The notes beneath the pieces were generated by a model. That model was not told the DNA's origin. It did not search any database and was given only the letters and a program-made list of their open reading frames with translations. The position numbers and the translations under genes were made by a program. Below are positions 5,595-49,923 of a DNA stretch of 50,854 bases, piece after piece (positions within the stretch are counted from its first letter, which is position 1; each line of letters opens with the position of its first letter). The stretch is from Candidatus Dojkabacteria bacterium (GTDB taxonomy: Bacteria > Patescibacteriota > Dojkabacteria > B142 > JAFGFJ01). The stretch is from the NCBI GenBank assembly GCA_016931155.1, contig JAFGFJ010000004.1:1-50854 (forward strand). Direction: 5' to 3'.

Positions 5595-5610
5595 ATCTTA
5601 AATCTCATTT

Positions 5611-6621
5611 ATGAAAAAGCAAAAATTTAATATGAGTAAAAAGTATTTGGCAATTTTACTAATTATAAGTGCTTTTATATTACTACTATCGCTTATTACG
5701 CTTGTCCCTCTGCCTTTTAGAGCTTCTTATGCGAATGCTCAACTCAACAATATTGTCGCAGGTAAAAGTTTTATTAAGAACCGAAATGTATTTTTTCCTG
5801 AAGTTATAGTATTTACCAAGGAAGATGATGGAGATGTAACTGCAAATTTCGTAAAGCTAAAGCGTAACTTCTTAGTTTGGTGGGAAGTAGACTCAATTTC
5901 TACTCAAGAAGTGGATAATAAATTCGAAAAAAAATCTACAGACACAATTGTAGCAAGCCTGACTGATGAGATTGAACAAGGAAAATTAAATAGTGGTGAT
6001 AATATCGATGCCGACCAAATCAGTGATTATGATATGAGAATAAAAGAACTTAATGATAAAGAATACGAAGTGATAGCTCAATACACCAATGAAGCAGGAG
6101 ATAAAGTACTTAAACTAAAATTAGATGGGAAAGGAGGCACGTATTTGACTCTAAATGAACAGTTTCTTCCTATTTCGGGGAACATCTCATCCCCTGCAAT
6201 CTCTCCTACAGGTGATGAGATATGCTATAGCAAATATCAACAATCAAGTGAAAAAGAACATGAGGTTTATTCTGGTAAGGTTTATTGTATAAATATAGAT
6301 ACAAAGAAAGAAGAAGAAATATATAGTTTTGGGGGAAACGTAGTCGCATCAATAGGGGTAAACAAGAAATATGTGATTTATTCATTATCAAATGGAGAGA
6401 TCGGAGTGGTTGGGCTTTCTTCAAGGCAAAAAACGAAGTTATTAGGTCTTCAGATGCTTCCTCAATCAGATCCTGGAAGGGTAATTTTTGCAGACGAACA
6501 GTCAGCTATCATTGATCCAAATGATTATGAAAAACTTGTGAATAACAATCAAAGAATGATTAGTATTGATCTACTGGACTTGACTTACAGTGAGAAAACT
6601 AACCCTTTGTCAGCACAATGA
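5611..6621 (+). CDS. Membrane-anchored protein with beta-propeller-like ectodomain
   Basis: The protein has 336 residues. An N-terminal anchor at about residues 12-33 (LAILLIISAFILLLSLITLV) precedes an acidic, polar region. From about residue 185 come TolB/WD40-like strands (SPAISPTGDEICYSKY, then VYCINIDTKKEEEIYSF), which is typical of a partial propeller that senses or binds outside the membrane. No catalytic motif is visible. A protein of similar layout (anchor plus propeller-like strands) is encoded at 32608-33834. Its stop overlaps the ATG of a broken small gene at 6618 (ATGA), extending the coupled series of exported genes. Function is unknown. Confidence 0.65.
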   Translation: MKKQKFNMSKKYLAILLIISAFILLLSLITLVPLPFRASYANAQLNNIVAGKSFIKNRNVFFPEVIVFTKEDDGDVTANFVKLKRNFLVWWEVDSISTQEVDNKFEKKSTDTIVASLTDEIEQGKLNSGDNIDADQISDYDMRIKELNDKEYEVIAQYTNEAGDKVLKLKLDGKGGTYLTLNEQFLPISGNISSPAISPTGDEICYSKYQQSSEKEHEVYSGKVYCINIDTKKEEEIYSFGGNVVASIGVNKKYVIYSLSNGEIGVVGLSSRQKTKLLGLQMLPQSDPGRVIFADEQSAIIDPNDYEKLVNNNQRMISIDLLDLTYSEKTNPLSAQ

Positions 6622-6767
6622 CATTTTTAGCACAAAATATGGGCATGGTACATAATGATTCTTCTGATGGTAGATGGGAAGTGAAGAGTAATACGATAGA
6701 ATTGCCTCCTGGTTCATTAATGTATAGTGTGGGTTGGTATAAATTTAGTGGGTCTAGACTAGATTAG
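6618..6767 (+). pseudogene. 5' fragment of a gene interrupted next to the IS element
   Basis: A short frame of 49 codons starts with an ATG that overlaps the previous stop in the same ATGA arrangement used by the upstream genes. That argues it is a real gene start rather than chance. The encoded peptide (MTFLAQNMGMVHNDSSDGR then WEVKSNTIELPPGSLMYS) stops at a TAG 28 bases before the transposase ATG. I infer that the original longer gene was cut here by insertion of the IS1595-type element. The downstream M23 fragment could be its other end, but nothing in the fragment proves it. Confidence 0.45.
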
Positions 6768-7406
6768 AGTGGTTGAAACGTTTAAAAACTAGTTATGACA
6801 ATGGAAAACAAGTATTTAGTTGAGGCTCGAATTACAGAGAGCAAATTCAGGGAAATATTGAGATATTTTAGCGAAGATGAAACAGCAACGAAGACAGCTA
6901 GGTACTCAAAAACAAATCGAAACACAGTGAATAGACTCTATGGACTATTCCGCCTAAGAATAGCAAAGATGAGCATTATTTCATTGCCAGAGCTTGGAGA
7001 ATTTGAAATAGATGAGAGCTATTTTGGAGCAAGAAGAGTTAGGGGAAAAAGAGGACGAGGTGCAGCAGGTAAAACTCCAGTATTCGGGATATTGAAACGG
7101 AAAGGCAAAGTATATGTGAACATAGTAAAGAACTGTAAAAAGGAGCAACTGATGCCAATTATCGAAGGCAGAGTACTGGAAGGATCAACGATATATTCTG
7201 ATGGATGGAAGAGCTATGACGGTCTAATACTTAATGGGTATGACCATTATCGCGTGTATCACAGTAAGAATGAATTTGCCAGGGGGAAGACACATATTAA
7301 TGGGATAGAGAGCTTCTGGAGTTACACTAAGAGAAGGATGGCAAAGTTTAATGGCTTAAGTGATGATGTGTTTCATCTTCATCTAAAAGAATCTGAATGG
7401 AGGTAA
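6768..7406 (+). mobile_element. Truncated IS1595-family insertion sequence
   Basis: This covers the transposase gene and its short upstream segment. The left boundary is uncertain: I see no clear terminal inverted repeat, and the segment from 6768 (ggttgaaacg region) is only the likely end. The right end is missing. The transposase stops where related enzymes continue for about 25 residues, and the sequence passes directly into an M23 peptidase reading frame without an inverted copy of the left end. The copy therefore appears immobile and marks a deletion scar. Confidence 0.55.
6795..7406 (+). CDS. IS1595-family (ISXO2-like) transposase, C-terminally truncated
   Basis: The protein has 203 residues. 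The catalytic core is clear: Asp73 in EIDESYFGARR, Asp136 in IYSDGWKSYDG and Glu172 in HINGIESFWSYTKRRMAKF match the DDE signature of the IS1595 group. The N-terminus carries a helix-turn-helix-like segment (ATKTARYSKTNRNTVNRLYG) but no zinc ribbon, as in the shorter subgroup. Family members normally continue after the HLHLKE motif with an FRFN-type tail. Here the protein ends at HLHLKESEWR, so the last 25 or so residues are lost. It sits between the broken start of a coupled gene and an M23 remnant. It probably cannot transpose by itself. Confidence 0.85.
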   Translation: MTMENKYLVEARITESKFREILRYFSEDETATKTARYSKTNRNTVNRLYGLFRLRIAKMSIISLPELGEFEIDESYFGARRVRGKRGRGAAGKTPVFGILKRKGKVYVNIVKNCKKEQLMPIIEGRVLEGSTIYSDGWKSYDGLILNGYDHYRVYHSKNEFARGKTHINGIESFWSYTKRRMAKFNGLSDDVFHLHLKESEWR

Positions 7407-7734
7407 GGATATAGAGCCTAACGGGTATGCTAAAATTTATGCAACCATGGATGGAATAGCTGAGAACATTGGATTTTATGCTGGGTACACTGTAGTATTA
7501 AGTAATAGCAAATACAAGGTATTATATTTTCACTTAGATCCAACTGGAACAAACAATATTTTAGAAAAAGGTGAAAAAAGAACTGTAAAAATGGGAGATG
7601 TAATTGGATTAGCCGATAACACAGGTTTTTCAACTGGTTCTCATTTACACTACGAAATTCATAAAATTGAAAACGGAAAAGAAAGATACGCTACTAAAGC
7701 AGAAATGAATGCCTTGTGGCCACCACCTTTTTAA
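7387..7734 (+). pseudogene. C-terminal remnant of an M23 metallopeptidase
   Basis: This frame is open from just after a stop at 7384 and overlaps the transposase end; the first ATG is at 7447 (95 codons). The peptide matches the second half of the M23 fold: VYATMDG-like strand, YTVVLSNSKYKVLYFHL, then VKMGDVIGLADNTGFSTG followed by HLHYEI, which is the HxH zinc motif. The first zinc motif (HxxxD) and any export signal are absent. As it stands it should be inactive. It looks like the 3' half of a secreted peptidase gene whose 5' half was removed when the IS right end was deleted. Confidence 0.7.
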
Positions 7735-7750
7735 ATTTTGCCTAACACTA

Positions 7751-9367
7751 ATGAATGAACAATTTAAAAGCAAAAGGTTCTATATTGTTTTGATAATAGT
7801 TACATTTATTGCAATAGTACTGTCAGCACACTTCTTAATCTTCAAAAACACAATAGTCCCTAGTAAAGATAGTATGGTCAATAATGAGAAGAAAGTATTT
7901 ACAGATTTTATGAGTTACCAGGCAAATAGTGTTAGAAATCTTGCCAGTCTTCCTATAACCAGGATTATAGCTGATGACTTTACTGTTGAAAACGAAGTTT
8001 CTACTGGAACAGTGATTAGTTTAGATCTGAAAAAAGAAGATTTAAGCGCAGAATTTGATAATCCGGAGAATTATCCAAGACAAAAATTTCTTACTTCCGA
8101 AAATTACGACTTTGACATTGAAGACCAAATTAATCAAGAGGGAACTACTGAAGTTGAGTATAGAAGATATCTTGACTTAAAAATCAAGGAAACCGTCTAC
8201 AATGAGATATTTTTAAATAATCTCGATGAAGCAGTAAAAATTGATAAATCCATGTACTGGATGAAATATGACAACATTACTTCTAGCAATTTAACCCAAA
8301 CTGAATATGACGGGATAGAACCGCCATCAGACCCGAGTATTACCTTTCAACTTAATGAGAAACAGATTAAAGCTGTCGATTATTTTAAGAAATTAGAAAA
8401 TTTTGAGTCTTCCTCAATTAATGCCTATCCTCTCTTTGAAAATCAACCAATTATCAATCTATTTTCAAAGATAAAGATTATAGAGCAAAAGGATGTAAAA
8501 GGATATTTTGCATTAAAAATTGGGAGTTATGTAGATTTAAGTATATTCGAACAAAAAGAAAAAATCGAAGTTCCGATAGCAAACAGAAGTGAGCTAATCA
8601 GGAGTATACAAAGAGGAAATGTTTTTTTGTTGAATGACTTTGAAATAGAGAGCAACTCAACCACAATAGTATTTAATGAAGCAAAGTTAGGATACTTTCT
8701 TGCCCTCGGAGATGATACCTCACTATTAATACCAGCCTACCATATTAAAGGCAAGTACAAAGATAAAGATGTCGAATTCTATACTTATGCTATCGCTTAT
8801 GAGAAATTATTAGACAAAAACTATGTTTATACAGAAACTCCAAAAATAGCATATATAAATCCAATAGTTGTAACAGAAGTAACTTTTAATCCAACAGATT
8901 CCTACAGGATAAAGGGTGTGTTTAGCGAAACCGATTATCAAGTTAAAGGACAACTTATTTCTAAGCCTCTTAGTGTAGAGAAAAAAAGAATTATCTTTAT
9001 TTTTCCAGATACTACAGATGAGAAATATAATCAAAATGAAGAAATAGCCCATAATATTGACAGAACAATTTGGTTTGATGAAGATGGAACCTTCCAACTC
9101 GAATTTGACGTAAACAATTTCTGGGAGATGTATAATGCAGAAAAAATAAAAAAGGAAGTGCGATCAAAACTGGATAACTATTTTCAATTAGTATTATGTA
9201 TATCCTACAAGGAAATAGCAAATAAGGAGTTTTGTAGTGCGAAATCTATAAGAACATTCTTACCAGTACATAAAAATACAATTGAGACCCTGGAGAATAA
9301 TAATCCAGTCGAAAACAAAAAAGAATCTTTGGACGAGGGATTGATAAGAGAAATCTTCAACCCATAA
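7751..9367 (+). CDS. Membrane-anchored extracytoplasmic protein, unknown family
   Basis: I place the start at the ATG at 7751 (MNEQFKSKRF), because a longer frame from 7709 would overlap the M23 remnant and add a non-native leader. The protein has 538 residues. A single transmembrane segment follows residue 10 (FYIVLIIVTFIAIVLSAHFL) with Lys/Arg before it, so the bulk faces outside. The ectodomain is mixed alpha/beta and rich in Lys, Glu and Asn. I recognise no domain. It has the size and layout of the other exported genes in this left arm and probably belonged to the same cassette before the IS event. A possible C-terminal continuation lies in another frame at 9348-9596. Confidence 0.65.
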   Translation: MNEQFKSKRFYIVLIIVTFIAIVLSAHFLIFKNTIVPSKDSMVNNEKKVFTDFMSYQANSVRNLASLPITRIIADDFTVENEVSTGTVISLDLKKEDLSAEFDNPENYPRQKFLTSENYDFDIEDQINQEGTTEVEYRRYLDLKIKETVYNEIFLNNLDEAVKIDKSMYWMKYDNITSSNLTQTEYDGIEPPSDPSITFQLNEKQIKAVDYFKKLENFESSSINAYPLFENQPIINLFSKIKIIEQKDVKGYFALKIGSYVDLSIFEQKEKIEVPIANRSELIRSIQRGNVFLLNDFEIESNSTTIVFNEAKLGYFLALGDDTSLLIPAYHIKGKYKDKDVEFYTYAIAYEKLLDKNYVYTETPKIAYINPIVVTEVTFNPTDSYRIKGVFSETDYQVKGQLISKPLSVEKKRIIFIFPDTTDEKYNQNEEIAHNIDRTIWFDEDGTFQLEFDVNNFWEMYNAEKIKKEVRSKLDNYFQLVLCISYKEIANKEFCSAKSIRTFLPVHKNTIETLENNNPVENKKESLDEGLIREIFNP

Positions 9368-9596
9368 ACTCAAGCTGGACGAGAAAGTACTAGCCAGTAG
9401 TATCGAAAGGTACAGTGAATCTGCCTTGGCTGAAGTGACCTCAGATTTTCATGTGGATACAAATTCTCTAAATCTAGACTGTCTAAAAGATGGAGGTGAG
9501 CTTTATCTATTAGACAAAATGTATTTCGAAAATAATAGATTTAGATTACTACAAATAATACAAACCCAAACGTTTTTTATTTCGAAGGATATATAG
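9348..9596 (+). pseudogene. Frame-shifted coding remnant after the 538-residue protein
   Basis: A frame without an ATG near its beginning stays open for 82 codons from 9348 to the TAG at 9594. It encodes a plausible soluble peptide (KLDEKVLASSIERYSESAL and, later, GGELYLLDKMYFENNRFRLL). It overlaps the last codons of the upstream gene in a different frame. Either the upstream gene once continued through a frameshift here, or this is the tail of a deleted gene. Composition matches the neighbours. Confidence 0.35.
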
Positions 9597-9645
9597 AAAT
9601 GGTAAAAGAGAAAAAATAGATCATGGGAAAAAAGCCGCAAACCAA

Positions 9646-10566
9646 TTAGCTCCCAGTTCCTAGTTTCTCAATATTACTCGGTGTTAAAAGCACATAGTCA
9701 AAGATGGAGGGCACCTGAGGGTATAGAGGTATTTTTGTAATGACAGTAGGGGCAGGAGTAGTCCCAAACTGATCTACATCAAGGGCATATCCTGTAGCTT
9801 CATACACCCTCATCTGATCGTCTATTACTCCAGTCGCCCTCACAGTCAGCAGAGTATATCCATCCTCTCTCATAATTGGTCTAAAACTTAAGTTGATAAG
9901 CTCATCACCTGGCTGAAGACCAGTAGTATCCCCAACAACGAATTCTGTACTTGTCTGCACTGTCCCAAGATATGGTCGGAAAGCCAACACATGGTTTTCT
10001 GGAGGCGAATCATTTAGAGGATCGTTCCCGTGAGTGGTCATCACCCCCAATGGATCAAAAACATCACTTATACTCATATATTCACCGCCTCTTCTGAAAC
10101 CCAAAGTAAAAGTCATTGCTGTCTGCCCGGTCCAGTCGACCCTCAAAAGGTTTCTGTAGCCGCCCAGATACATAGTAAATAATTCATCTTTTTGGAGGGT
10201 ATAATCTTCTATATCCTTATTGTCCTCAATAGTCATTGTCACTTGAGAAATATTGTCATTGTCAACAATCGTACAAGTAATCCCTTTACCTGACATTGAA
10301 CAACTTGCATTTTCATCAACCAGAGAAGGATCAGAAATAATTTCAGACAAGTCGTACTCTGGACTTCCAAAAGCGTATATCGTTCCGATAATAGCCTGTT
10401 CAGCTCTGTCAAGATATCTCTCGTACTCTTTGGTAGTAGTCTGTTGTTCAACGTCTTTTGAAGCAATCAAGATCACAGAGACAACTATTACAGTAATAAT
10501 AGTAAGGACAAGAAGCGTAATTACCATTATTTGTCCTTTGTTGTTATTTTTTAATGATTTAATCAT
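9646..10566 (-). CDS. PilX-like type IV pilus assembly protein
   Basis: I choose the ATG at 10566 (MIKSLKNNNKGQIMVI) because a longer frame adds 42 residues inside the upstream gene with no pilin-like feature. The protein has 306 residues. The N-terminus KGQIMVITLLVLTIITVIVV is the prepilin-like hydrophobic helix of PilX/GspK-type proteins, but it lacks the Glu5 of ordinary pilins. A long extracellular C-terminal domain follows, including a Pro-rich end. It is the last gene of the pilus operon and overlaps the preceding prepilin gene by eight bases. A role as a minor subunit at the pilus tip or an assembly initiator is inferred from family and position. Confidence 0.7.
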   Translation of the reverse strand: MIKSLKNNNKGQIMVITLLVLTIITVIVVSVILIASKDVEQQTTTKEYERYLDRAEQAIIGTIYAFGSPEYDLSEIISDPSLVDENASCSMSGKGITCTIVDNDNISQVTMTIEDNKDIEDYTLQKDELFTMYLGGYRNLLRVDWTGQTAMTFTLGFRRGGEYMSISDVFDPLGVMTTHGNDPLNDSPPENHVLAFRPYLGTVQTSTEFVVGDTTGLQPGDELINLSFRPIMREDGYTLLTVRATGVIDDQMRVYEATGYALDVDQFGTTPAPTVITKIPLYPQVPSIFDYVLLTPSNIEKLGTGS

Positions 10567-11236
10567 AGAATCGTGTATAAAAAGAACTACATGTCCTGCT
10601 AAAGGATAAACTGGAATCACAGTAGAATGCAAGAGTAGGGGACTCAAAATTCGGAATACGAACCGGAGCAGATCCTGATCCAGTACTCCCACTTACTCCT
10701 GGGTAATTCCTTGTAGATATAGCAGTTTGCTGAACAACATTTGAAATATTCAGGGCACCTCCCCTGTAAGAACCAACAATAGTCACGAGTATAGTTCTCT
10801 TATCAAGTGTTTTATCAAAACCGATATCAAAAAATAGCTTATCTATAGTCATGTATTCAGGGCTTCTTTCTTGTATGCTTCCATTGTCATCGTACTTGCA
10901 CACCCCCTTCGTACCGTCTTCATTATCACAAAGCTTCCAGCTGAATTTACCTGACATTGCAAGTACCCCCTCGCACACCGCTTCGTCGTTTTCACCAACA
11001 CAATGGTTTATTACTTGTGAGTTTCTTATATCTCTTTTGATATTTGACAAGATATTTGATATTTCTTCACGCACATTAGCACGTGCAGCCGTCTTTGCTG
11101 CCACAGACAGTGAAATGATCATAACATTTGTAAGCATCACAAGCATGACAGCAATTATCGCCAGAGAAACAACTATCTCAAGAAGAGAATAAGCCTTCTT
11201 ATCAACTACCTGTTTTAATCTGAAAACAATATTCAT
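10559..11236 (-). CDS. Minor prepilin (PilW/PilV-like)
   Basis: The protein has 225 residues with a class III leader, KKAYSLLEIVVSLAIIAVML, in which the expected Gly before the cleavage site is Ala and Glu5 is present. The rest is a Cys-containing globular domain (CVGENDEAVCEG, LCDNEDGTKGVCKYDD) with several cysteines that could form disulfides outside the cell. PilD is encoded upstream in the same operon and should process it. The gene overlaps the PilX-like gene by eight bases and follows another minor prepilin by 34 bases. Confidence 0.78.
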   Translation of the reverse strand: MNIVFRLKQVVDKKAYSLLEIVVSLAIIAVMLVMLTNVMIISLSVAAKTAARANVREEISNILSNIKRDIRNSQVINHCVGENDEAVCEGVLAMSGKFSWKLCDNEDGTKGVCKYDDNGSIQERSPEYMTIDKLFFDIGFDKTLDKRTILVTIVGSYRGGALNISNVVQQTAISTRNYPGVSGSTGSGSAPVRIPNFESPTLAFYCDSSLSFSRTCSSFYTRFYD

Positions 11237-11270
11237 GTTATACCTTTTTGATAAACCAATAGTTAGAGGT

Positions 11271-11843
11271 CTACCTGCTCATTATATTAAAATTCCCCTT
11301 TCTAAAAGCCTGAACTTTTTCTACTACCTTTTCGCCACCTATCTCATAAACAACGACTGATACTACACTGTATGTTCCGTCCTCATCAAGCAGCTGCTTA
11401 AAAATAATCTGATTACACATAACCACATTAATTTCTGGCACATCAACTTTGTAAAGCCTATATGCCTCACTACCCTGAGTACATTCACCTGCACTTATTT
11501 CGTCAACAAACGGACTGACTGACTCGAGAGAGGCTACTCCCACACCTTCCTCCTGTCCCGAGGGGAGTGTTTTATTGATCTTATAAGAGCCAACGAGACC
11601 AGATACAGCTGCATTGCCACCAATTGATGGGATAATGTTTAGAGGAACGGGAGATTTTACAAGCTCAAGTGTTTGAACCAGTATTTCATTTGCTGTATTT
11701 TCTATTTCATTCTCCTTGGCAAGCCTGAGCGATTGGCTGGTCATACTGATGGCAACTACCATAGTCGTAGAAGCAACTCCAAGAGATATTATTACCTCAG
11801 CAAGACTAAACGCTTTTTTTCTTTTCCAGAATAATTTCCTCAT
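11271..11843 (-). CDS. Minor prepilin
   Basis: The protein has 190 residues. Its N-terminus, KRKKAFSLAEVIISLGVAST, is a prepilin leader with Ala in place of the usual Gly at the cleavage site, then Phe1 and Glu5. The long hydrophobic alpha-1 helix is followed by a polar beta domain with cysteines (SAGECTQGSEAY, VVMCNQIIF). The gene begins two bases from the stop of the preceding prepilin gene, so translation is probably coupled. Together with its two neighbours it would form the priming or tip complex of the pilus. Confidence 0.75.
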   Translation of the reverse strand: MRKLFWKRKKAFSLAEVIISLGVASTTMVVAISMTSQSLRLAKENEIENTANEILVQTLELVKSPVPLNIIPSIGGNAAVSGLVGSYKINKTLPSGQEEGVGVASLESVSPFVDEISAGECTQGSEAYRLYKVDVPEINVVMCNQIIFKQLLDEDGTYSVVSVVVYEIGGEKVVEKVQAFRKGNFNIMSR

Positions 11844-11845
11844 TA

Positions 11846-12439
11846 CTACAATTTAATATAGCTTATTTGGTTATTTTCCGCATCAAACCTGATTTTCTGG
11901 TTGAGATTCGTATTTTCAAAACTGATAACAATATCACAAATATTTTTTGTAGTTCTCACCGCACCAATATCTGAAAAAAGTCTCATATTCCCACTTACAC
12001 GCTCAAACAAAACACCCTGACAGTCATAACTGCTTCCCTCATCCACTTCAATTGATATATCACTATATATCAACTGTTTCAAATTTGCAGTTTCCACATT
12101 GCATATATAATCATCCACTCCTGAACCAATAGATGAAGCCTTATCGCAATAATAAAGAGCGTAATTATCGCCTTCAAAAACGAGGGCATAAGCATCTACT
12201 TTTGCTTCCAGAACACTGTTTACTTTTTTTGATGTACTGAGAGAACTGTTTCTTGCTTTATTCCGTGCCAATTCAGTACTTGCAAATACTTCTCTTGCCG
12301 CCTGTTTTAGCAGGGCAGTCTGCCTGAATCTTACAAGACCAACAATACTCAGACTCCCAAGTACGGCCACTATTGCAATCACAACAATAAGCTCAAGAAA
12401 ACTTATCCCCTTATTTTGTTTGATCCATTTCATACTCAC
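11846..12439 (-). CDS. Minor prepilin (GspH/FimT-like)
   Basis: The protein has 197 residues with the N-terminal prepilin signature KGISFLELIVVIAIVAVLGS: Gly-1 cleavage site, hydrophobic helix and Glu5. The arrangement of a short helix containing RQTALLKQAAREVFASTELA and a beta-rich C-terminus is like GspH/FimT minor pseudopilins. It lies directly after pilD, with its ATG adjacent to the pilD stop, and ahead of two further minor prepilins. Confidence 0.75.
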   Translation of the reverse strand: MSMKWIKQNKGISFLELIVVIAIVAVLGSLSIVGLVRFRQTALLKQAAREVFASTELARNKARNSSLSTSKKVNSVLEAKVDAYALVFEGDNYALYYCDKASSIGSGVDDYICNVETANLKQLIYSDISIEVDEGSSYDCQGVLFERVSGNMRLFSDIGAVRTTKNICDIVISFENTNLNQKIRFDAENNQISYIKL

Positions 12440-13291
12440 TTATAAGAGCGGAAAAATAAAACCAAAAATCTCTTTTGAAAACAAAAATCCAAAAACGGCT
12501 CCAATAGACAAAAACGGGACAAACGGAAGTCTCAGACCTCTTAGTTTCCCTTTTTTTATTGCAACTATAAGCCCAATGATTGAACCAATTACAAAAGCAA
12601 TATAAAAGCCAACTACTGAACCCTTCCAAGAAGATATAAGACCAAGCATTGCTGCAATTCGGATATCACCACCACCCATACCTTCACCTTTTGTCACAAA
12701 TACCAGAACAGCTATAAATAGAGCAGAAACAATACCGGAAATGATGTTGAAAAAGGGATAAATAATTATCACATTATCAATGCTTATCGAAGAACTTAAT
12801 GAAAAGCCTTTATAAACAAACAGGGCTAAATTCACGAAAACCAAAATCGCTACCAGTGGTATAGAAAGCTTATCAGGTACTTCCTGATAACAATAATCAT
12901 AAGCTGCAAAAAAAACGAAAATCGACAGAAAAAGACCGATCAAAAGGGCAAACGCAAGATATCGAAAAATTGAATCAGTTGAAAGCAGATCTATCTCCCC
13001 GATAAATCTTATTTGGGATAAAACAAAGACTGCCCCCGTTACAACCTCCACAAAAGGATAATATTCTGGAATTTGCTTCCGACAATGTTTGCATTTTCCA
13101 CCCTGCAAAAAGTAAGAGAGTAGGGGAATAAGCTCAAGAGGACCCAGCTTATGCTTGCAATGAGGACATTCCGATCTATCATTGATAAACTTTTTTTTTG
13201 CCCTGATTCTTGGGACTAAAACTGTAATAAAACTTCCAATACAGAGACCAAACACAAATACTATTGAGAACAGCACAAGATAAATTGACAT
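12440..13291 (-). CDS. pilD: Prepilin peptidase / N-methyltransferase PilD
   Basis: The protein has 283 residues and is a polytopic A24 aspartic peptidase that cleaves prepilin leaders and methylates the new N-terminus. It has the N-terminal signature GSFITVLVPR, two CxxC pairs (CPHCKHKLG and CKHCRKQIP) of the cytoplasmic zinc-binding loop, the first catalytic Asp in FFAAYDYCYQEVPDKLS, and the second in GEGMGGGDIRIAAMLGL, the GxGD-type motif. Length is normal for the full bifunctional enzyme. It sits in the middle of six substrate genes. Confidence 0.95.
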   Translation of the reverse strand: MSIYLVLFSIVFVFGLCIGSFITVLVPRIRAKKKFINDRSECPHCKHKLGPLELIPLLSYFLQGGKCKHCRKQIPEYYPFVEVVTGAVFVLSQIRFIGEIDLLSTDSIFRYLAFALLIGLFLSIFVFFAAYDYCYQEVPDKLSIPLVAILVFVNLALFVYKGFSLSSSISIDNVIIIYPFFNIISGIVSALFIAVLVFVTKGEGMGGGDIRIAAMLGLISSWKGSVVGFYIAFVIGSIIGLIVAIKKGKLRGLRLPFVPFLSIGAVFGFLFSKEIFGFIFPLL

Positions 13292-13293
13292 TT

Positions 13294-13764
13294 CTATTTT
13301 CTAATATCTGCAAACTTACTGGTGCTCGTTCCAATATCAATAACACCACTTTCCTTATCAGCCCCCAAAACATAACCGTCTCTCTCAACCTTATAACAAT
13401 AGACAGTTCCTGAACTATCGCTTTCCAAAGTTGGACTGCAAAGACTTGCGCCCCCCCCTTTCGGTTTGACAAGCCCCTCAACTTTTACTTTTCTAGGCTC
13501 AATATTTCTTCCAGCAATTATTATCTCTTCTTCACCCCAGGTAATATCTCCCTCAGTCGGGATTCTCCCGGTCTGTGTCTGTACTCTTGTAATTTCAGAC
13601 TTTATTTCCTCAAGAGCCTTAAGCCTTAGGGAATCTCTCGAAGATCTCTGAAGAACCCCAACTCCAAAAACCGACATAACAGTCAGCACCCCAATTATTG
13701 CAACAACAACTATTATCTCTATCAGAGTAAAACCCTTTTTATCAAATCCGGTTGTATTTCCCAC
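13294..13764 (-). CDS. Type IV prepilin (major-type), copy 2
   Basis: The protein has 156 residues and starts with GTG at 13764. Its leader FDKKGFTLIEIIVVVAIIGV is a canonical class III signal with Gly-1, Phe1 and Glu5. After the alpha-1 helix comes RSSRDSLRLKALEEIKSEI and a short beta domain containing YCYKVERDGYVLGADKESG. The same pattern (YCY, then GYxLGA, then E-x-G) occurs in the adjacent prepilin at 13777-14232, so the two are paralogues. It is followed three bases later by pilD. Confidence 0.82.
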   Translation of the reverse strand: MGNTTGFDKKGFTLIEIIVVVAIIGVLTVMSVFGVGVLQRSSRDSLRLKALEEIKSEITRVQTQTGRIPTEGDITWGEEEIIIAGRNIEPRKVKVEGLVKPKGGGASLCSPTLESDSSGTVYCYKVERDGYVLGADKESGVIDIGTSTSKFADIRK

Positions 13765-13776
13765 AATAAGCTTAAA

Positions 13777-14232
13777 TTATGGTCTTCCAAATAATTGCTC
13801 GCAGGAAGCATTTACATCAGCCCCTTCCTCAAACCACTCACCATTTTCCAGGACAGCACCAAGAGCGTATCCACCTGATGTCCTCTCATAACAATACCTT
13901 GTTCCATTTGCATCAGTATCGCCTCCACCAAGATTAAACCCTACCTGTTTTGCTATTCCCTTCAACTCAACAGAAATAAACACATTCCCATTTCTTTCAA
14001 GAACAACCTTATTGCTTTGAAAGTCTATGTCTGTTGATTCAGGATACTGATTGTACAACTCGTAGTAGCTCTGTATTGCCATAGCAATATCGTCAACAGT
14101 ATTTCTTCTTTGAGCATCCCTCGAAGCCCTCTGTGCAAGACTTATCCCAAATACGGTCATTCCAAGTATCACGGCTATTATTGCCATCGTGACAAGAAGT
14201 TCAACAAGAGTAAACCCTTTTTTATTTTTCAT
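13777..14232 (-). CDS. Type IV prepilin (major-type), copy 1
   Basis: The protein has 151 residues with the textbook prepilin start KNKKGFTLVELLVTMAIIAV. The alpha-1 helix leads into RASRDAQRRNTVDDIAMAI and a Gly/Cys-containing globular head (RYCYERTSGGYALGAVLENG). It is placed directly after pilC and is the best candidate for the main pilus subunit, judged by its canonical leader and position. The head shares its central motif with the next gene. Confidence 0.85.
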   Translation of the reverse strand: MKNKKGFTLVELLVTMAIIAVILGMTVFGISLAQRASRDAQRRNTVDDIAMAIQSYYELYNQYPESTDIDFQSNKVVLERNGNVFISVELKGIAKQVGFNLGGGDTDANGTRYCYERTSGGYALGAVLENGEWFEEGADVNASCEQLFGRP

Positions 14233-14268
14233 GAGTATAAATTTTATAAACTAAATTAAAACAAATTT

Positions 14269-15489
14269 TTATTGAACGAACTGTCCGATCTGATAAATAG
14301 GAAGATAGATTGCAACTGCCAGAAGCCCGACCAACCCCCCTACAAACAAAAGAATAAGAGGTTCCATAAGCTTTGTCAAATTGTTGGTAATCTGATTTAC
14401 CTCATTGTCGTAAAATTCGGCAAGACTTTCAAGAATCTGATCGAGACTACCAGTTTCTTCTCCTGTCGCAATCATTTGACTGACAATAAGAGGAATATAT
14501 TTACTCTTGGAAAGAGGTACTGCAAGGGGAATTCCCTTACTTACATCTTCTGCAGCAGAAGAAAGTGCATTTTGGAAGTGAATGTTCGACATCGAATTTG
14601 TTACTGTTTTTATTGTATCAATTATAGGAATACCGCTTACTAGAAGCATATGTGTCAGCCTTGTGAGCTGAGTAATTTGAATTTTTGTATTCAAAGGACC
14701 AAAAACCGGGATTTTTAAAAGAAGCTTATCAGTAAACTCTCTTCCGCTCTTCGTCCCTCTGTAATACCTGAAGGCAAAAATAATCAATCCAGTGCCCCCA
14801 ACAATTGAAATAAATCCGATGGGGCTTTTTACGAAATTTCCGAAAGCTACAAGTAGCCTGGTAACAATTGGAAGTTCTGCTCCCCCAAAATCAGCATACA
14901 ATTCTTCAACAGCAGGCACCATAAACAGTATCATTACAAAAAGAACTACTACTACAGCTACAAGGATAATAACAGGGTAGATCATTGCACTCCTTATCTT
15001 TGACTGTATATCATTCGATTTTTCAAGATCAATAGAGATTTGTGTTATTACTTCTGAGAGATTTCCGCTTTGTTCTCCAGCTCTCAAAAGACTAAGCTGA
15101 ACCTCATTAAACATCGATTTGCGCTTGGAAAAAGCAGAAGAGAGTGTGTTCCCACCTTTTACCTCCTCCAAAATACTATTTAGCTCATTTCTAAACCCTT
15201 CATTCGTTGTCTGCTGAACCAGGATATCTAGTGACTGGGTAATAGGGAGACCCGCAGAAAGCATTACTGACATTTGTTTTGTAAAAAATACTTTGTCCTT
15301 GAGAGGAATCCCTCCTATCTGCACGCTGCCAATTTTTTTGAGGCTAAAACCGATACTATCGTCTATATTGACCACAATAAGATCCTGCCCATGAAGAGCA
15401 TTAAGAACTTCCTCTCTGGATGTTGCCTCCATCTCACCCTCAATCCTTTCACCCGTTTTTTTTGTAGCAATATATCTAAAGTTTGCCAT
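14269..15489 (-). CDS. pilC: Type IV pilus inner-membrane platform protein PilC
   Basis: The protein has 406 residues, the normal length for PilC/GspF. It has an N-terminal cytoplasmic domain with IPLKDKVFFTKQMSVMLSAG and PITQSLDIL, a transmembrane pair around AMIYPVIILVAVVVVLFVMI, a second repeat of the T2SSF domain (LTRLTHMLLVSGIPIIDTI), and a C-terminal helix near PLILLFVGGLVGLLAVAIYL. PilC connects the cytoplasmic ATPases to the growing pilus. The ATG overlaps the pilT stop by one base (TAATG). Confidence 0.95.
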   Translation of the reverse strand: MANFRYIATKKTGERIEGEMEATSREEVLNALHGQDLIVVNIDDSIGFSLKKIGSVQIGGIPLKDKVFFTKQMSVMLSAGLPITQSLDILVQQTTNEGFRNELNSILEEVKGGNTLSSAFSKRKSMFNEVQLSLLRAGEQSGNLSEVITQISIDLEKSNDIQSKIRSAMIYPVIILVAVVVVLFVMILFMVPAVEELYADFGGAELPIVTRLLVAFGNFVKSPIGFISIVGGTGLIIFAFRYYRGTKSGREFTDKLLLKIPVFGPLNTKIQITQLTRLTHMLLVSGIPIIDTIKTVTNSMSNIHFQNALSSAAEDVSKGIPLAVPLSKSKYIPLIVSQMIATGEETGSLDQILESLAEFYDNEVNQITNNLTKLMEPLILLFVGGLVGLLAVAIYLPIYQIGQFVQ

Positions 15490-17321
15490 TATGCTTTCTT
15501 CATAAGTCTAACAAGTTCTTCAGGTCTTGTCGTATGCTTTTGAGCATCTTCCACAGAAATTTCTCCCTCTCTGATAAGATCAACAAGAGATCTTTCAAGA
15601 GTAACCATTCCCACATCAAAGCTCGTCTGAATAATGTTATCTATCTGATAGGTCTTTCCCTCACGAATAGCATTTCTAACAGCAGGTGTCCCAATCATTA
15701 TTTCAGTTACAGCACGCCTTCCACCGCTTTTTACAGGGATAAGCCTTTGTGAAATAACAGCAGAAATTACATTTGAAAGCTGTGATCTGATCTGAGCCTG
15801 CTGATGCTGAGGAAAGACGTCAATTATTCTGTCTATTGTCTGAACTGCAGTGTTTGTATGCAAAGTAGCAAACACAAGGTGACCAGTTTCTGCAACTGTA
15901 ATAGCTGCTGCAATAGTCTCAAAATCCCGCATCTCTCCCACAACCACAACATTTGGATCCTGTCTCAATACAGCCCTTAGAGCATTATCCCAGCTCAATG
16001 TATCTTTATGCATTTCCCTTTGATCGACAAGAGATGCTCCTTTGGGATAAACATATTCAATAGGATCTTCTATTGAAATAATATGTTTTCTTTGTTTTGA
16101 ATTTATCTCCTGAACCATTGCAGCAATAGTAGTACTTTTACCACTTCCAGTAGGACCGGTTACTAGAACAAATCCCTGTGGTATCTCAATAAATTCATTG
16201 GCAATTTGAGGAAGTTTCAATTCCTGTATAGTTCGAATCTTCGAAGGCAAGAACCTGAATGCAGCAGCCATATTTCCTTTCTCGTGATAGACATTAATCC
16301 TAAATCTTGCATTCTCTCCATACTCGTAAGACAAGTCTACTTCTTTTGTTTCTTTCAAAGTTTTCTTCTGATCTTCAGTCAGTATTGAAGAAATGAACCT
16401 TTCTATATGTTTCCCTTCTAAAATTGCAGTACCTACCTTGTCAAGAGTTCCGTCCACCCTCATAAAGACCGGATAACCAACCCCAAAATGCAAATCAGAT
16501 GCATTCTTCAAAAGTACGAGATCAAAATACCTTTCTATGGTCGCTGTATTTGGATCTATACTCTGAGCCAGGACTTCTTCTTCAGAAGGCGTTCCGGTTT
16601 CTTCATTAATTTCCATATCATTTGGCTCGGAATCCATAGAGATAGTTTTTATTCGTTCGAATGCTGGAGATTCAAGATCTTCCGTATTAACTTCACTACT
16701 TATAGCAGGAAGCTCCTCAGGTAATTCTCCGGAGATAGCCGAAGTCACTTCCATCTGTTGCAATTCCTTACCCGCTGTCTTCACTTCATTTCCAGAACTT
16801 GTACTCACTGTTTCTTCCAAAGTTTCACTCAAAGGGGGCAAAGTTTCACCAACAGATCCCTCCACCGGAGCAGTATTTGCGGAATTTTCTACAAGAGCTT
16901 CTAAAGATGGAGCCGGGTTATTTCCCGCCTGCTCACCTGCCAATGTTTGTTGAGTACCAACTGGAAGGTCAGACGAAACAGAAGAAATGTCAACTTGTTC
17001 TGAAGAATCACTTGGAAGGGGAGGACCCTTTATCTCCTTGACTCCTTCCCCCGTAATATTAACCTCTTGTCCTGGCAACATCGTTGGAACTTTTTTGCTT
17101 TCCTCATGCTCAATTTCACCATTATTGTAAGACTCTGATGGAGCTTTCATTTCTTCTGACTCAACTCCGGTCTCAACCGAAATCCCATTTTTATCCTGTG
17201 TTGGAGTATTATCCACAGGACTTTGCTGACCTCCAGCCATTCCAGCTTTTGTAACTACTGGCTCAGCAGGAGTAATCTTCTGATCTCCATCATTCTTCTT
17301 TGCAATACTTATAAAGGGCAT
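15489..17321 (-). CDS. pilT: Type IV pilus retraction ATPase PilT with long disordered N-terminal extension
   Basis: The protein has 610 residues, against about 350 for usual PilT. The last 350 residues are a complete secretion ATPase: NASDLHFGVGYPVFMRVDG, Walker A GPTGSGKSTT, Asp and His boxes (ISIEDPIEYVYP, HLVFATLHTNTA), Walker B VVVVGEMRDFETI, and the PilT-like C-terminus ending in an RPEELVRL helix. The first 255 or so residues are low-complexity, acidic and rich in Ser, Glu, Pro and Thr, with no cysteine or predicted fold. PilT drives pilus disassembly. The extension may be a regulatory or interaction tail; that is inference. Confidence 0.93.
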   Translation of the reverse strand: MPFISIAKKNDGDQKITPAEPVVTKAGMAGGQQSPVDNTPTQDKNGISVETGVESEEMKAPSESYNNGEIEHEESKKVPTMLPGQEVNITGEGVKEIKGPPLPSDSSEQVDISSVSSDLPVGTQQTLAGEQAGNNPAPSLEALVENSANTAPVEGSVGETLPPLSETLEETVSTSSGNEVKTAGKELQQMEVTSAISGELPEELPAISSEVNTEDLESPAFERIKTISMDSEPNDMEINEETGTPSEEEVLAQSIDPNTATIERYFDLVLLKNASDLHFGVGYPVFMRVDGTLDKVGTAILEGKHIERFISSILTEDQKKTLKETKEVDLSYEYGENARFRINVYHEKGNMAAAFRFLPSKIRTIQELKLPQIANEFIEIPQGFVLVTGPTGSGKSTTIAAMVQEINSKQRKHIISIEDPIEYVYPKGASLVDQREMHKDTLSWDNALRAVLRQDPNVVVVGEMRDFETIAAAITVAETGHLVFATLHTNTAVQTIDRIIDVFPQHQQAQIRSQLSNVISAVISQRLIPVKSGGRRAVTEIMIGTPAVRNAIREGKTYQIDNIIQTSFDVGMVTLERSLVDLIREGEISVEDAQKHTTRPEELVRLMKKA

Positions 17322-17454
17322 TTTGGACAGTTAATAATTAATTTTTTACTTTAGTAATTTGTCTCAGACAATTTAACAGATTTTTCGATATTTATTAACA
17401 CCTGTATGTTTTCAATTATTTCTCATCTATTTAATTGTGCCGGTTCATCCACGA

Positions 17455-19536
17455 TTATTTATTTGCCACTCTCAATATTTCTTCTACAGTAGTAAGTCCA
17501 TCAAGAGCTTTCATAAAACCATCCTGAATCATCGTTTCCATTCCCTTTTCAATAGCCATCTTCTCAATTTCCTCTACAGAACGGTGCTCCATAACAAGTC
17601 TGCCAATTTTCTCATTGAATCCAAGAGTCTCAAATATCGCCATCCTTCCCTGATACCCGGTGTCTCCACATTTCGGGCAACCCTTTCCTCTGTATAGGTA
17701 TACCTCATTACTCGGAGGTTTTACTGCCTGCATTTTTATAATTTCCGACGAAGGTATCTGGCTGGTATCCTTAGTGCTTACTTTGCCAGGTACAGAAGCA
17801 GGATCAAAAGATTTCGGATAAGAAAACATATCAAATCCCTTGAGACCCGCCAGGACTTTATGTATTTTTTCAACTATTGGAGGTGGGGCGATATATTTTT
17901 CCTTACAGTTTTCGCAGATTTTCCTCACAAGCCTTTGACCGACTGAAACATTAATAGTAGAAGCAAGCAGAAACGGTTCAACCCCCATATCAAGAAGACG
18001 GGGAAGAGCCCCTGCCGCACTATTGGTATGAAGAGTCGCCAGAACCAGGTGACCTGTGAGAGCCGCCTGTACTGCAAGGGCAGCTGTTTCAGCATCACGA
18101 ATTTCTCCCACCATTATTATGTCCGGATCCTGCCTCAAAAAAGATCGAAGACCATTCGCAAAAGAAAGACCTACCTCTTCATTTATTTGCACCTGGGTAA
18201 CCCCTTCTACTCTTATTTCAACCGGATCCTCAAGAGTCATTATATTTACTTCCTGCGTATTTAGTATCTTAAGTGAACTTGCAAGAGTCTGGGTTTTTCC
18301 ACTTCCTGTTGGACCTGTCACAAGAACTATCCCTTGAGTTTTCGCCAGTGCTTCCCTATATGTTTTCAGTGAAGTACCTCTCAGTCCAGTATCTTCGAGA
18401 TTCATAATCCCTCCTCCTTTTTCAAGAAGCCTCATTACAACCTTCTCTCCATATATTGAGGGCATGATTGAAATCCTTATATCTACAGCTCTATCAGCAA
18501 CCTTAATCTGAAACCTGCCATCTTGAGGAACTCGATGTTCATCAATCTTTAAATTTGAAAGAATTTTCAGCCTTGAGACAATAGAGCTTGAAAGCTTCCG
18601 GGGAAGCGTTAACCTCTCAGACAAAACCCCGTTTAGTCTATATCTGACTGCTACCTTACTTTCACGGGGCTCAATATGAATATCAGAAGCGTTAAACCTG
18701 GTAGCATACTCAAGAACCATATTTACAATCCTCGAGACAGGAGCAGATCCTAAGTCTGCCCCGGATAAATCCTGTTCTTTCCCGATAACCGGACCTATCA
18801 CAAAAGCTTCACCGACATCTTCAAGTGCCTCGGTTACTTCTTCTTCAATTTTTACACTGTACTTTGTATCAAGTACCTTCTTTATATCTGTAGGAGTAGC
18901 ATAATAGGGTGCTATTTTCTTGCCGATAACAGCTTCGATGTAATTGACCTTTTGGATATCAATCGGATCGGTCATTGCCACCTTTATGTAATCACCAACC
19001 AGCTCAAAGGCAATTGCACTGTTTTTCTGTGCCGCTTCAAAAGGAATTTTTTGTATTATTTCAGTGGAAATTACTAGCTCACCAAGCTCAATAAAGGGAA
19101 TCCCTGTTATCTCCGATTTCGTCTTGAAAAGATCATTTTCAGAAATCAAACCTTTCTCCACCGCCAGAGATTCAGCACTTCTTCCGGTACTGGCAGACTC
19201 AAACTTCAATGCTTTATACTTTTCAGTATCAATAACTCCTTTCTCAATAAGCTTTGAAAGGACATTAATTGCCCCGGTTCCGTGACTAATCGGAGAAGAT
19301 ACCGGAGCAGACACCGGAGCTTGTGTAGAAACGGTCTGTATTGCACCAGCATCTGACCCCACTGCAGCAGGGACTTCTGCAGGAACAGGATTCTGACCAG
19401 ATGTGTTTGATAGTTGATTTAATCCTGCTGGAGAAACTCCCTTGTCCGGAGCAGATCCATTTACTGGAGCACCCTGAACGAGAGCTTGAAGGTTCGAATC
19501 TAAACTTGAGTTTGTATTATTGACATTGCCGGGCAT
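17455..19536 (-). CDS. pilB: Type IV pilus extension ATPase PilB
   Basis: The protein has 693 residues. After a Pro/Ala/Ser-rich disordered leader of about 90 residues comes a T2SSE N-terminal domain (LIEKGVIDTEKYKALKFES, IPFIELGELVIS), then the ATPase core: SDIHIEPRESKVAVRYRLNG, Walker A GPTGSGKTQTLAS, Asp box MTLEDPVEIRVEGVTQVQ, Walker B DIIMVGEIRDAETA and His box LATLHTNSAAGA. Two CxxC pairs (CENCKEKY and CPKCGDTGYQGR) form the zinc finger of PilB/GspE. It is the first gene of the pilus operon, divergent from the delta-prime-like gene, and 133 bases ahead of pilT. Confidence 0.95.
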   Translation of the reverse strand: MPGNVNNTNSSLDSNLQALVQGAPVNGSAPDKGVSPAGLNQLSNTSGQNPVPAEVPAAVGSDAGAIQTVSTQAPVSAPVSSPISHGTGAINVLSKLIEKGVIDTEKYKALKFESASTGRSAESLAVEKGLISENDLFKTKSEITGIPFIELGELVISTEIIQKIPFEAAQKNSAIAFELVGDYIKVAMTDPIDIQKVNYIEAVIGKKIAPYYATPTDIKKVLDTKYSVKIEEEVTEALEDVGEAFVIGPVIGKEQDLSGADLGSAPVSRIVNMVLEYATRFNASDIHIEPRESKVAVRYRLNGVLSERLTLPRKLSSSIVSRLKILSNLKIDEHRVPQDGRFQIKVADRAVDIRISIMPSIYGEKVVMRLLEKGGGIMNLEDTGLRGTSLKTYREALAKTQGIVLVTGPTGSGKTQTLASSLKILNTQEVNIMTLEDPVEIRVEGVTQVQINEEVGLSFANGLRSFLRQDPDIIMVGEIRDAETAALAVQAALTGHLVLATLHTNSAAGALPRLLDMGVEPFLLASTINVSVGQRLVRKICENCKEKYIAPPPIVEKIHKVLAGLKGFDMFSYPKSFDPASVPGKVSTKDTSQIPSSEIIKMQAVKPPSNEVYLYRGKGCPKCGDTGYQGRMAIFETLGFNEKIGRLVMEHRSVEEIEKMAIEKGMETMIQDGFMKALDGLTTVEEILRVANK

Positions 19537-47284: not shown

Positions 47285-47911
47285 ATGAAACAACCGATAA
47301 TTGTTCTTAAAGTAATTTTAACATTTTTACTGTCAGCAGTGTCGATCACATATTTCGCAGATCAACTAAGACAGGATAAAACAAATGCACAGGAGGTACT
47401 CCAGTCCGTTGTTGTATCAGTGAATGTGAGAGTCGGCAAAATCAGCTTCACTGTCTACCCCGAGAAAAGAATTCCTCCGACAGGAAACTGGAGTACAAGA
47501 ATGAGCGTCCAGATTAGACAAGCTGGAACGACCGTTCCAATTATTCAAAGAGATAATGTTACCACAGATTCTAATGGCTACGGGGAGATTATCCTTTCAG
47601 ACAGCGAAATCTTAAACCCTGGTGTTTACGATTTTTCGTTTAAGGGAATCTCTCATTTGAGAAAAAACTATTATTCTTATACCATTTCTAGTCTTGAACC
47701 CTATTTAAATTTTACTACAAACAGGGAATATCTCCTTGCTGGAGAAACCAGTGTCATTGTTGATAATTATGTAAATTCTTTGGATGTTTCTACTGTAGTA
47801 AAAAACTTCTATAAAACCAACATACAAAATGACCTGAATAGAGATGGCCAGGTAAATTCACTTGACCTTAGTAACCAAATAATTAATTTATACAAGTTCG
47901 GAGACACATGA
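47285..47911 (+). CDS. Secreted protein with C-terminal dockerin-type domain
   Basis: The protein has 208 residues. A signal peptide at residues 3-25 (PIIVLKVILTFLLSAVSITY) precedes a beta domain (residues about 38-150) and the C-terminus holds two dockerin-type calcium-binding repeats. The second is canonical: DLNRDGQVNSLDLSNQI starts at residue 183. The first, NYVNSLDVSTVVKNFYK near residue 160, keeps the VNSLDV part but lost the DxNxDG loop. Dockerins dock onto cohesins; the next gene encodes a cohesin and overlaps by four bases (ATGA). The beta domain could be a carbohydrate- or pilus-like module; it shows no enzyme motif. Confidence 0.85.
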   Translation: MKQPIIVLKVILTFLLSAVSITYFADQLRQDKTNAQEVLQSVVVSVNVRVGKISFTVYPEKRIPPTGNWSTRMSVQIRQAGTTVPIIQRDNVTTDSNGYGEIILSDSEILNPGVYDFSFKGISHLRKNYYSYTISSLEPYLNFTTNREYLLAGETSVIVDNYVNSLDVSTVVKNFYKTNIQNDLNRDGQVNSLDLSNQIINLYKFGDT

Positions 47912-49923
47912 AAAATAGATTTTCAGAGAAAACTTCATTTGTCAGGATAATTGTTCTTACGGTGGTTCTTCTCTGCATTGGATTTGCAAACCCCTACCAG
48001 ACAAAAGCGGCTACCAACGGCTCCTTTAGAATAACAGCACCTTCAACCACTCTTGTGTCAAATTGTGAGTATTTTGCAAATATCGTGATAAATACGGGAG
48101 GAGACAACTCGAACGCTGCAGACATTGAAATAACATTTGATCCTGCCAGGCTCGAAATTTTGGATTCAGACACTTCTGTCCCCGGAAAACAGATTCAAAT
48201 GGGTAGTGCTTATGAGGGATATTTGGGAAATATGGTTGATGAATCTACTGGAAGAATAAGACTTCTTGGTGCTTCGACTACAAGGATACTAAATGGTGAA
48301 GCAGTCTTCGGAATTATAAAATTCAGATCAAGACCTGCAGTGACCAGTGCAGGATTTAGTATTAAGTTCGATGGTGCAGGAAATACTTTGGATAGCAACA
48401 TAGCAGACTCATCAACGAGTTATGATATTCTTGGTTCAGTTGAGAACATTTCTTTTACCTTCGGTTCAGGTAGCTGCCCCACAGATACCTCGGGTCCAAT
48501 TATTATATTCGTACAACCCAAAAATAACGAAATATCTTATCCTCCAAACGGTCATATTATTATAAAAGTTTCAGACCCAGGCACGGGGATAAATATAAAT
48601 ACACTCCACATAAACATAAATGGAGAGATATATTTAATAACCAGTCCAGAGTTGAGTTATGAAGTAAGTGGATCAGAATATACTATAGAAATAGTACCGA
48701 AAAACCCTTTCCCCACTGATCAACCTTCAACCATTATAGTAAGAGTAGAAGACAATTCAGGTAATTCCTCCACGGAATCTATTGTTTTCAATATGTTACA
48801 GCAAAGAGAAGATCTTCCGGAGACAGGAATTTCAACACCTGTAGACAAAGTAATAACAGATACTATTAACAGTCTGGAAAATATTTTTAAAAGAATCACG
48901 GATACAATCCCAGGTATGCTGGGTCAAATAATACAGGAAGCGGGCATAGCCGGTCTCGGAAGCATTCTTAGTGCCTTAACTCTTATTGCTTACGGAATAG
49001 CTCTTCTTTTTACACTCAGAAGTCCCAAGCATTTGTTTTACCTCTTCGGATTTGTTTTCGGAAAAAGAAGTAAGAACCCCTGGGGCATAATTATTGATGG
49101 GAATAGCAACAAACCTGTAGCTTTTGCAAATGTCAGGTTGTATATCGAGGGAAGCAGAGCTGTCGTCAATGAAAAAGTATCTGATCTCGATGGCAGGTAC
49201 GGACTCGTTGCATCAGCAGGAAAATATAGGCTGGAAGTAGAACATTCGGACTATAAAAAAGAAATTGTTTCTATAGAAATTCCAGAAACAGGAGTAATCA
49301 CAAGAGATATAGTACTCAGACCGCTTGAATCGAAAATGAATTTCTTCAGAGGTATAAGGAAAGGTCTTGAGAATTTCAATAATTCAATGAATAAACTACT
49401 CCCATATATTTTCACAATTGGATTTTTTTCTTCACTACTGGCAACTATTTTCAACCCTGTGGTCACTAACTTTTTGATCATGACCTGTTATTTTGTATTT
49501 CTTATCCTTCAGGCAATCGCAAGCAGATACAAACTGAAGGAATGGGGATCTGTCTTTGATTCATCCAGCAATCTTTTGGTACCAAATACTTTGGTCAAAT
49601 TATTTGATACAAAGACTTGGAAGCTAATAGACACCCAAATGACTGATGAAAAGGGACGGTTTGGGCTGTTTATCCAACCTGGTGAGTACGGTCTTCTTGC
49701 TGTAGCACAAGGTTATAGTTTCCCTTCAAAGAAGCAGGAAGACCTGCCACTTCTTGAGGAGAAATACCAGAGTCTCCTTAAGGTAGATATAAAGGAAGGA
49801 AAAAAACTTGATGTTGATATTCTACTTGATCCCCTTGGAGAGGCAACTGCGAAAAAACTTCAGGAGAAATTTACCAGTTCAAAGGGAAATACAATTCAAG
49901 ATTCTCCCTTCGGAGTCGATTAG
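47908..49923 (+). CDS. Membrane-anchored cohesin-domain protein with CarboxypepD_reg-like domains
   Basis: The protein has 671 residues. A signal peptide (residues 12-30, FVRIIVLTVVLLCIGFANPY) is followed by a cohesin-like domain (about 38-190: ANIVINTGGDNSNAADIEIT, FDPARLEILDSD, and GEAVFGIIKFRSRPA). An Ig-like domain (about 197-300) follows. A transmembrane segment near residues 350-372 (SILSALTLIAYGIALLFTLR), a first CarboxypepD_reg-like domain (GIIIDGNSNKPVAFANVRLY), a helix pair near 498-536 and a second such domain (GSVFDSSSNLLVPNTLVKLF) complete it. Positive residues after the first membrane helix suggest the regulatory-like domains face the cytoplasm, which is odd for this fold. It probably captures the dockerin protein encoded immediately upstream. 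Confidence 0.85.
   Translation: MKNRFSEKTSFVRIIVLTVVLLCIGFANPYQTKAATNGSFRITAPSTTLVSNCEYFANIVINTGGDNSNAADIEITFDPARLEILDSDTSVPGKQIQMGSAYEGYLGNMVDESTGRIRLLGASTTRILNGEAVFGIIKFRSRPAVTSAGFSIKFDGAGNTLDSNIADSSTSYDILGSVENISFTFGSGSCPTDTSGPIIIFVQPKNNEISYPPNGHIIIKVSDPGTGININTLHININGEIYLITSPELSYEVSGSEYTIEIVPKNPFPTDQPSTIIVRVEDNSGNSSTESIVFNMLQQREDLPETGISTPVDKVITDTINSLENIFKRITDTIPGMLGQIIQEAGIAGLGSILSALTLIAYGIALLFTLRSPKHLFYLFGFVFGKRSKNPWGIIIDGNSNKPVAFANVRLYIEGSRAVVNEKVSDLDGRYGLVASAGKYRLEVEHSDYKKEIVSIEIPETGVITRDIVLRPLESKMNFFRGIRKGLENFNNSMNKLLPYIFTIGFFSSLLATIFNPVVTNFLIMTCYFVFLILQAIASRYKLKEWGSVFDSSSNLLVPNTLVKLFDTKTWKLIDTQMTDEKGRFGLFIQPGEYGLLAVAQGYSFPSKKQEDLPLLEEKYQSLLKVDIKEGKKLDVDILLDPLGEATAKKLQEKFTSSKGNTIQDSPFGVD

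Follow-up and report, generated by a model that had tools for sequence, protein, structure and literature searches.

A conserved X-dockerin/cohesin gene pair in Candidatus Dojkabacteria, a probable enzyme-free junction at the cell surface

The scaffoldin CipA of C. thermocellum binds enzymes through its many cohesins and bears a type II X-dockerin; the same organism displays cohesins on its cell surface. In Ruminococcus flavefaciens the X-dockerin is found on a non-enzymatic protein, CttA, which sits on the cell-anchored cohesin of ScaE; here the dockerin has insertions, the cohesin is anchored via its C-terminal side, and the junction withstands about 600 pN (PMC4266597). Cohesins and dockerins in organisms without cellulosomes were reported by Peer et al. 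2009, as cited in PMC10066038, and Patescibacteria, too, have been noted to carry genes for one or the other (PMC9123182, PMC10633639). One such gene product, SEML1_0315, is an essential dockerin-bearing protein of Southlakia epibionticum, a member of the Saccharibacteria (PMC10633639). Non-cellulosomal cohesins and dockerins are thus already known; for a conserved two-gene unit of X-dockerin and cohesin we found no description in the open-access papers searched. In Patescibacteria, whose envelope cohesion and host attachment are little understood, a plug-and-socket unit conserved by itself across a class offers a testable part of the cell surface; in one cultured member of the phylum, a dockerin protein is already known to be essential (PMC10633639).

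The window, the whole stretch of DNA that was analysed, is a contig of 50,854 bases from a 971 kb, 92% complete genome of a Candidatus Dojkabacterium, a tiny, probably host-dependent bacterium. All features of the gene pair lie on its plus strand. An ORF with homologs (47285–47911) encodes P0001, an X-dockerin protein of 208 aa, and is followed by an ORF (47908–49923) for P0002, a membrane-anchored cohesin protein of 671 aa. The P0002 start codon and the P0001 stop codon overlap in the sequence ATGA (47908–47911), which is likely to couple their translation; a start/stop overlap or near-contact is also seen in several relatives' gene pairs. This order and overlap had been described in an earlier note on this DNA, and both were confirmed. 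From its hydrophobic N-terminus P0001 runs into an X-module and then a dockerin. P0002 starts with a signal peptide, continues with a cohesin and an Ig-like domain, and ends in membrane segments interspersed with two transthyretin-like domains.

The beta domain of P0001, which the earlier note had left as unknown, proved to be an X-module (residues about 42–148; 47408–47728; conserved motif KGISHLRK). A profile of the P0001 family (20 members) matched the CipA X-dockerin of C. thermocellum (2b59_B) with E=4e-8, aligning the X-module and the dockerin as one unit, and also matched other X-dockerins. It is this span over both modules that identifies the domain, placing the X-module N-terminal to the dockerin. 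Ahead of it, residues 5–25 (47297–47359) form a 21-residue hydrophobic segment, a probable signal-anchor. Topology was assigned for both proteins from hydropathy and a simple cleavage rule, and by this rule a strict [AVST]-x-A cleavage site is absent from 15 of the 22 P0001 family members, including P0001 itself. Because the hydrophobic stretch lacks a clear cleavage site, the N-terminus is suggested to be an uncleaved membrane anchor rather than a cleaved signal peptide. P0001 carries the docking part alone, with no ligand-binding module beyond the X-module.

The dockerin module (residues 150–208; 47732–47908) was detected with the Pfam dockerin profile PF00404, whose cut-off is 22.9 bits. 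P0001 scored 22.3 bits in the genome search, 24.3 bits with its frame neighbours and 19.1 bits, slightly under the cut-off, in hmmscan; all 20 family members were matched at E<=1, the best at 2.4e-7, which bears out the dockerin assignment made earlier. Column counts over the same 20 members resolved two calcium-type loops. The second (47831–47866) has the canonical 12 residues, DLNRDGQVNSLD, with D183 and D194 invariant and D187 kept in 18 members. The first (E154–D167; 47744–47785) has 14 residues, two over canonical, as it does in 16 of the 20 members; two others have the canonical length, and in two the loop is longer still. Relative L070 has a canonical first loop, DVNGDDEINSLD. The columns that are kept in loop 1 are D/E154 (20/20), D160 (19/20), N164 (20/20) and D167 (20/20), and NSLD closes the loop in both repeats of P0001. 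To say, as had been done, that the first repeat has lost its calcium loop is therefore too strong: the loop is lengthened, and its acidic residues are retained. Both loops keep their calcium-ligand positions. Length variation in the first calcium region of X-dockerins is known, that of CipB having been reported as longer than its B. cellulosolvens counterpart (PMC8063739), and insertions in dockerins are known as well (PMC4266597).

The cohesin domain of P0002 spans residues 36–192 (48013–48483). The Pfam cohesin profile, PF00963, found nothing on full-length P0002 or in the genome search, and NCBIfam gave no useful match. The excised domain reached 16.1 bits (E=0.013), under the curated cut-off of 24.1 bits, so that the Pfam search fell short for the domain in the window itself, while 10 of 18 cohesin family members were matched, the best at 8.8e-8. 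Against solved cohesins, a purely sequence-based comparison with the cohesin family profile gave a weak match (E=0.1), behind an unrelated match to LptA at 0.063. The AlphaFold2 model of mature P0002 has a pLDDT of about 90 across the domain, and its matches with a good target TM-score (TMt) were solved cohesins (6kgf_C, TMt 0.77; 6kge_A, TMt 0.78; 2.5 Å), in agreement with the cohesin-like domain proposed earlier for residues 38–190. In a close relative, L081, whose cohesin domain is about 49% identical, both genes lie in one frame; its pair was read through its stops (TAA and TAG as Gly) and modelled with AlphaFold2 as one chain, a construct that informs on the folds only. This model (pTM 0.62; dockerin part at pLDDT about 40–75) confirmed the cohesin fold, the 40 best structure matches all being cohesin modules. 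On the models, residues 36–192 of P0002 are a cohesin fold. The same cohesin domain is present in relatives among Candidatus Dojkabacteria (WS6) and other Patescibacteria.

The remainder of P0002 looks like a stalk and an anchor. A signal peptide (residues 1–34; 47908–48009) ends in a strict [AVST]-x-A site, QTKA-ATN, which 17 of the 21 P0002 family members possess, P0002 included. Behind the cohesin lies an Ig-like beta domain (residues about 195–297; 48490–48798; AlphaFold2 strands, pLDDT of about 86), which is doubled in some relatives. Transmembrane segment 1 (residues 350–368; 48955–49011) was placed by hydropathy, with positive charge on its C-terminal side. It precedes a first transthyretin-like domain of the CarboxypepD_reg-like type (residues 393–472; 49084–49323; PF13715, 38.5 bits, E=1.2e-9), a transmembrane hairpin (residues 497–537; 49396–49518; hydropathy, helices in the model) and a second transthyretin-like domain (residues about 545–640; 49540–49827; a weak PF01060 match, a beta domain in the model). 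Judged by the charges, both transthyretin-like domains are probably cytoplasmic. The genome has three sortase genes and P0002 an LPETG motif (48814–48828), a possible sortase site. Sortase anchoring of the ScaE type was rejected because the motif is unconserved, LPxTG occurring in 3 of the 21 family members, and wrongly spaced, at residue 303 with the membrane segment starting from ~350. The membrane and transthyretin-like C-terminal part (48940–49827) recurs in very large proteins of the class (2,000–4,700 aa), and this genome itself encodes another copy on a protein of 1,076 aa (contig C5, 8365–9087); possibly it is an anchor module in general use.

Homologs of P0001 were found in 19 of 58 genomes searched, and the family profile matched in 26 of 86 genomes of the class. 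The class has strong X-dockerins at 23 loci. At 22 of these, a cohesin gene lies directly downstream in the same order and on the same strand; at the remaining one (L141) the downstream gene encodes a 738 aa protein that the cohesin profile does not match. No other neighbour family is common to more than four of the loci compared, so the pair has been kept together while its surroundings changed. In one relative (L058, 788–2101) the cohesin gene is divided into two ORFs, possibly through an assembly error. Among 380 Patescibacteria genomes, an X-dockerin match was obtained in 90, a cohesin match in 83 and both in 55; a cohesin is thus present in 55/90 genomes with an X-dockerin and in 28/290 without (Fisher p=4e-22, uncorrected for relatedness). 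Beyond the class, 48 places have a strong dockerin, and at 26 of them a cohesin lies no more than 2.5 kb downstream on the same strand; this is a lower bound because the cohesin profile was built almost wholly on the Dojkabacteria class. The adjacency of X-dockerin and cohesin is far beyond chance. A search for P0001 relatives on plasmids found none.

Taken together, P0001 and P0002 probably form a cognate, enzyme-free, non-covalent X-dockerin:cohesin junction at the cell surface of this Dojkabacterium. P0002 would be exported, its signal peptide cleaved, and the protein anchored through three transmembrane segments, its cohesin outside on the Ig-like stalk and its two transthyretin-like domains probably inside. 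P0001 would also be exported and would dock its X-dockerin into the cohesin of P0002, in the mode of ruminococcal X-dockerin:cohesin complexes and those of type II from clostridia, each EF-hand-type loop most likely holding calcium. From the sequences, binding of P0001 to P0002 is very likely and its dependence on calcium likely, whereas for a structural or adhesive role of the pair the balance is only slightly favourable. The pair would then probably give a two-protein link of high mechanical strength at the surface, inside one envelope or from one surface to a neighbouring one, rather than an enzyme display platform, because P0001 is cargo-free and its N-terminus anchor-like. Such a junction may connect parts of a single cell's envelope, one cell with the next, or the cell with a host.

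On these features CttA:ScaE appears to be the closest described arrangement, sharing the non-enzymatic X-dockerin protein on a cell-anchored cohesin, the insertions in the dockerin and the C-terminal anchoring of the cohesin (PMC4266597). It differs in that CttA has two cellulose-binding modules and P0001 none, and in that ScaE is sortase-anchored to the wall whereas P0002 is fixed through membrane segments and has domains that are probably cytoplasmic. With the C. thermocellum system the pair shares the X-dockerin and the surface cohesin, but that system has a scaffoldin and enzymes, and this one has neither. The modules resemble those of non-cellulosomal cohesins and dockerins, as far as the citation in PMC10066038 conveys them, but here they make up a dedicated, conserved two-gene unit. 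SEML1_0315 is also a dockerin-bearing envelope protein of a host-dependent member of the same phylum (PMC10633639).

Could the pair instead be a remnant of a degradative cellulosome, of which cohesin and dockerin are the hallmark, with its dockerin-bearing enzymes elsewhere in the genome? A cellulosome reading has been made for some Patescibacteria, the Shapirobacterales (PMC9123182). In the genome studied here, P0001 is the one dockerin detected and, in line with the earlier note's statement that no glycoside hydrolase is present, no enzyme domain is found on it; nor is there a multi-cohesin scaffoldin, P0002 and the genome's second cohesin protein having one cohesin each. Since only one dockerin was detected, this is not a cellulosome; a degradative one was rejected, and the fragment reading is extremely improbable, being already largely refuted. 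The junction of cohesin and dockerin is here separated from cellulose degradation, persisting in small genomes with no detectable dockerin-bearing enzyme. Improbable, too, is a reading without any binding within the pair, in which P0001 would be a beta protein that binds calcium and P0002 a surface protein unrelated to it, the two genes being co-transcribed on other grounds. The sub-threshold Pfam score of the cohesin in the window would fit that reading, but the domain has the cohesin fold, and a strict pairing that has outlasted all other synteny and is seen again beyond the class argues against it.

The most serious competitor, though an unlikely one, is adhesion or cargo display proper. 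It is modelled on CttA and ScaE minus the cellulose-binding modules: P0001 would be secreted after cleavage, and with its X-module or N-terminal part it would bind a host or substrate ligand while P0002 holds it on the cell. The CttA X-dockerin and ScaE cohesin, which share the arrangement, hold cells on cellulose (PMC4266597), and for the essential dockerin protein of the epibiont S. epibionticum host-glycan targeting was suggested by its authors (PMC10633639). In other classes the dockerin proteins of related pairs bear DUF4215, fn3, Ig-like, laminin-G or PAN modules. Against this stand the missing ligand-binding module of P0001 and the missing cleavage site in most of its family. Since P0001 has no cargo and an anchor-like N-terminus, the surface display proposed in the earlier note is not evident at this locus, though it is evident in related ones. 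What stands of that interpretation is a real X-dockerin gene coupled to a membrane-anchored cohesin gene, free of enzymes; its statements on the beta domain and the calcium loop are corrected above.

The junction reading need not imply a strictly one-to-one pairing, because the genome encodes a second cohesin-type protein, which has no dockerin neighbour and is a possible second partner of P0001. This protein of 229 aa (contig C9, 202158–202541; L071, 3970–4659, minus strand) has an LPKSG-membrane-RYRK tail, and relatives of about 240 aa occur in several genomes.

Larger versions of the system are found in other Patescibacteria. Dockerin proteins elsewhere in the phylum bear fn3, Ig-like, laminin-G, PAN, DUF4215 or esterase modules. 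Locus L119 (genome G143, 5758–9368) has two cohesin-dockerin genes and then a cohesin gene with a membrane end, and L138 (G146, 4039–7430) has a cohesin-dockerin, a two-cohesin-dockerin and then a membrane-anchored cohesin; to judge by their modules, such gene sets could possibly give self-assembling chains. In L124 (G151, 218–11884), six consecutive dockerin genes were seen with no cohesin in the stretch, the cohesins of that genome being on its contig C2. We tentatively raise the idea, as a less than even prospect, that cohesin:X-dockerin junctions serve Patescibacteria as a general non-covalent means of surface building, from the minimal pair described here to chains encoded by gene sets like L119 and L138, which might join into enzyme-free fibres bearing adhesion modules.

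Elsewhere in the window, a large ORF of secreted type, open at the window edge (2–3640), has repeats, a stretch resembling M23-type peptidases and, at the C-terminus, a C39-like part, as judged by eye. A transposase-like ORF (6795–7406; IS1595 type by eye) adjoins large surface-protein genes. A type IV pilus-like cluster (9646–19536), also recognised by eye, comprises prepilin-like proteins, a prepilin peptidase, an inner-membrane protein and two ATPases.
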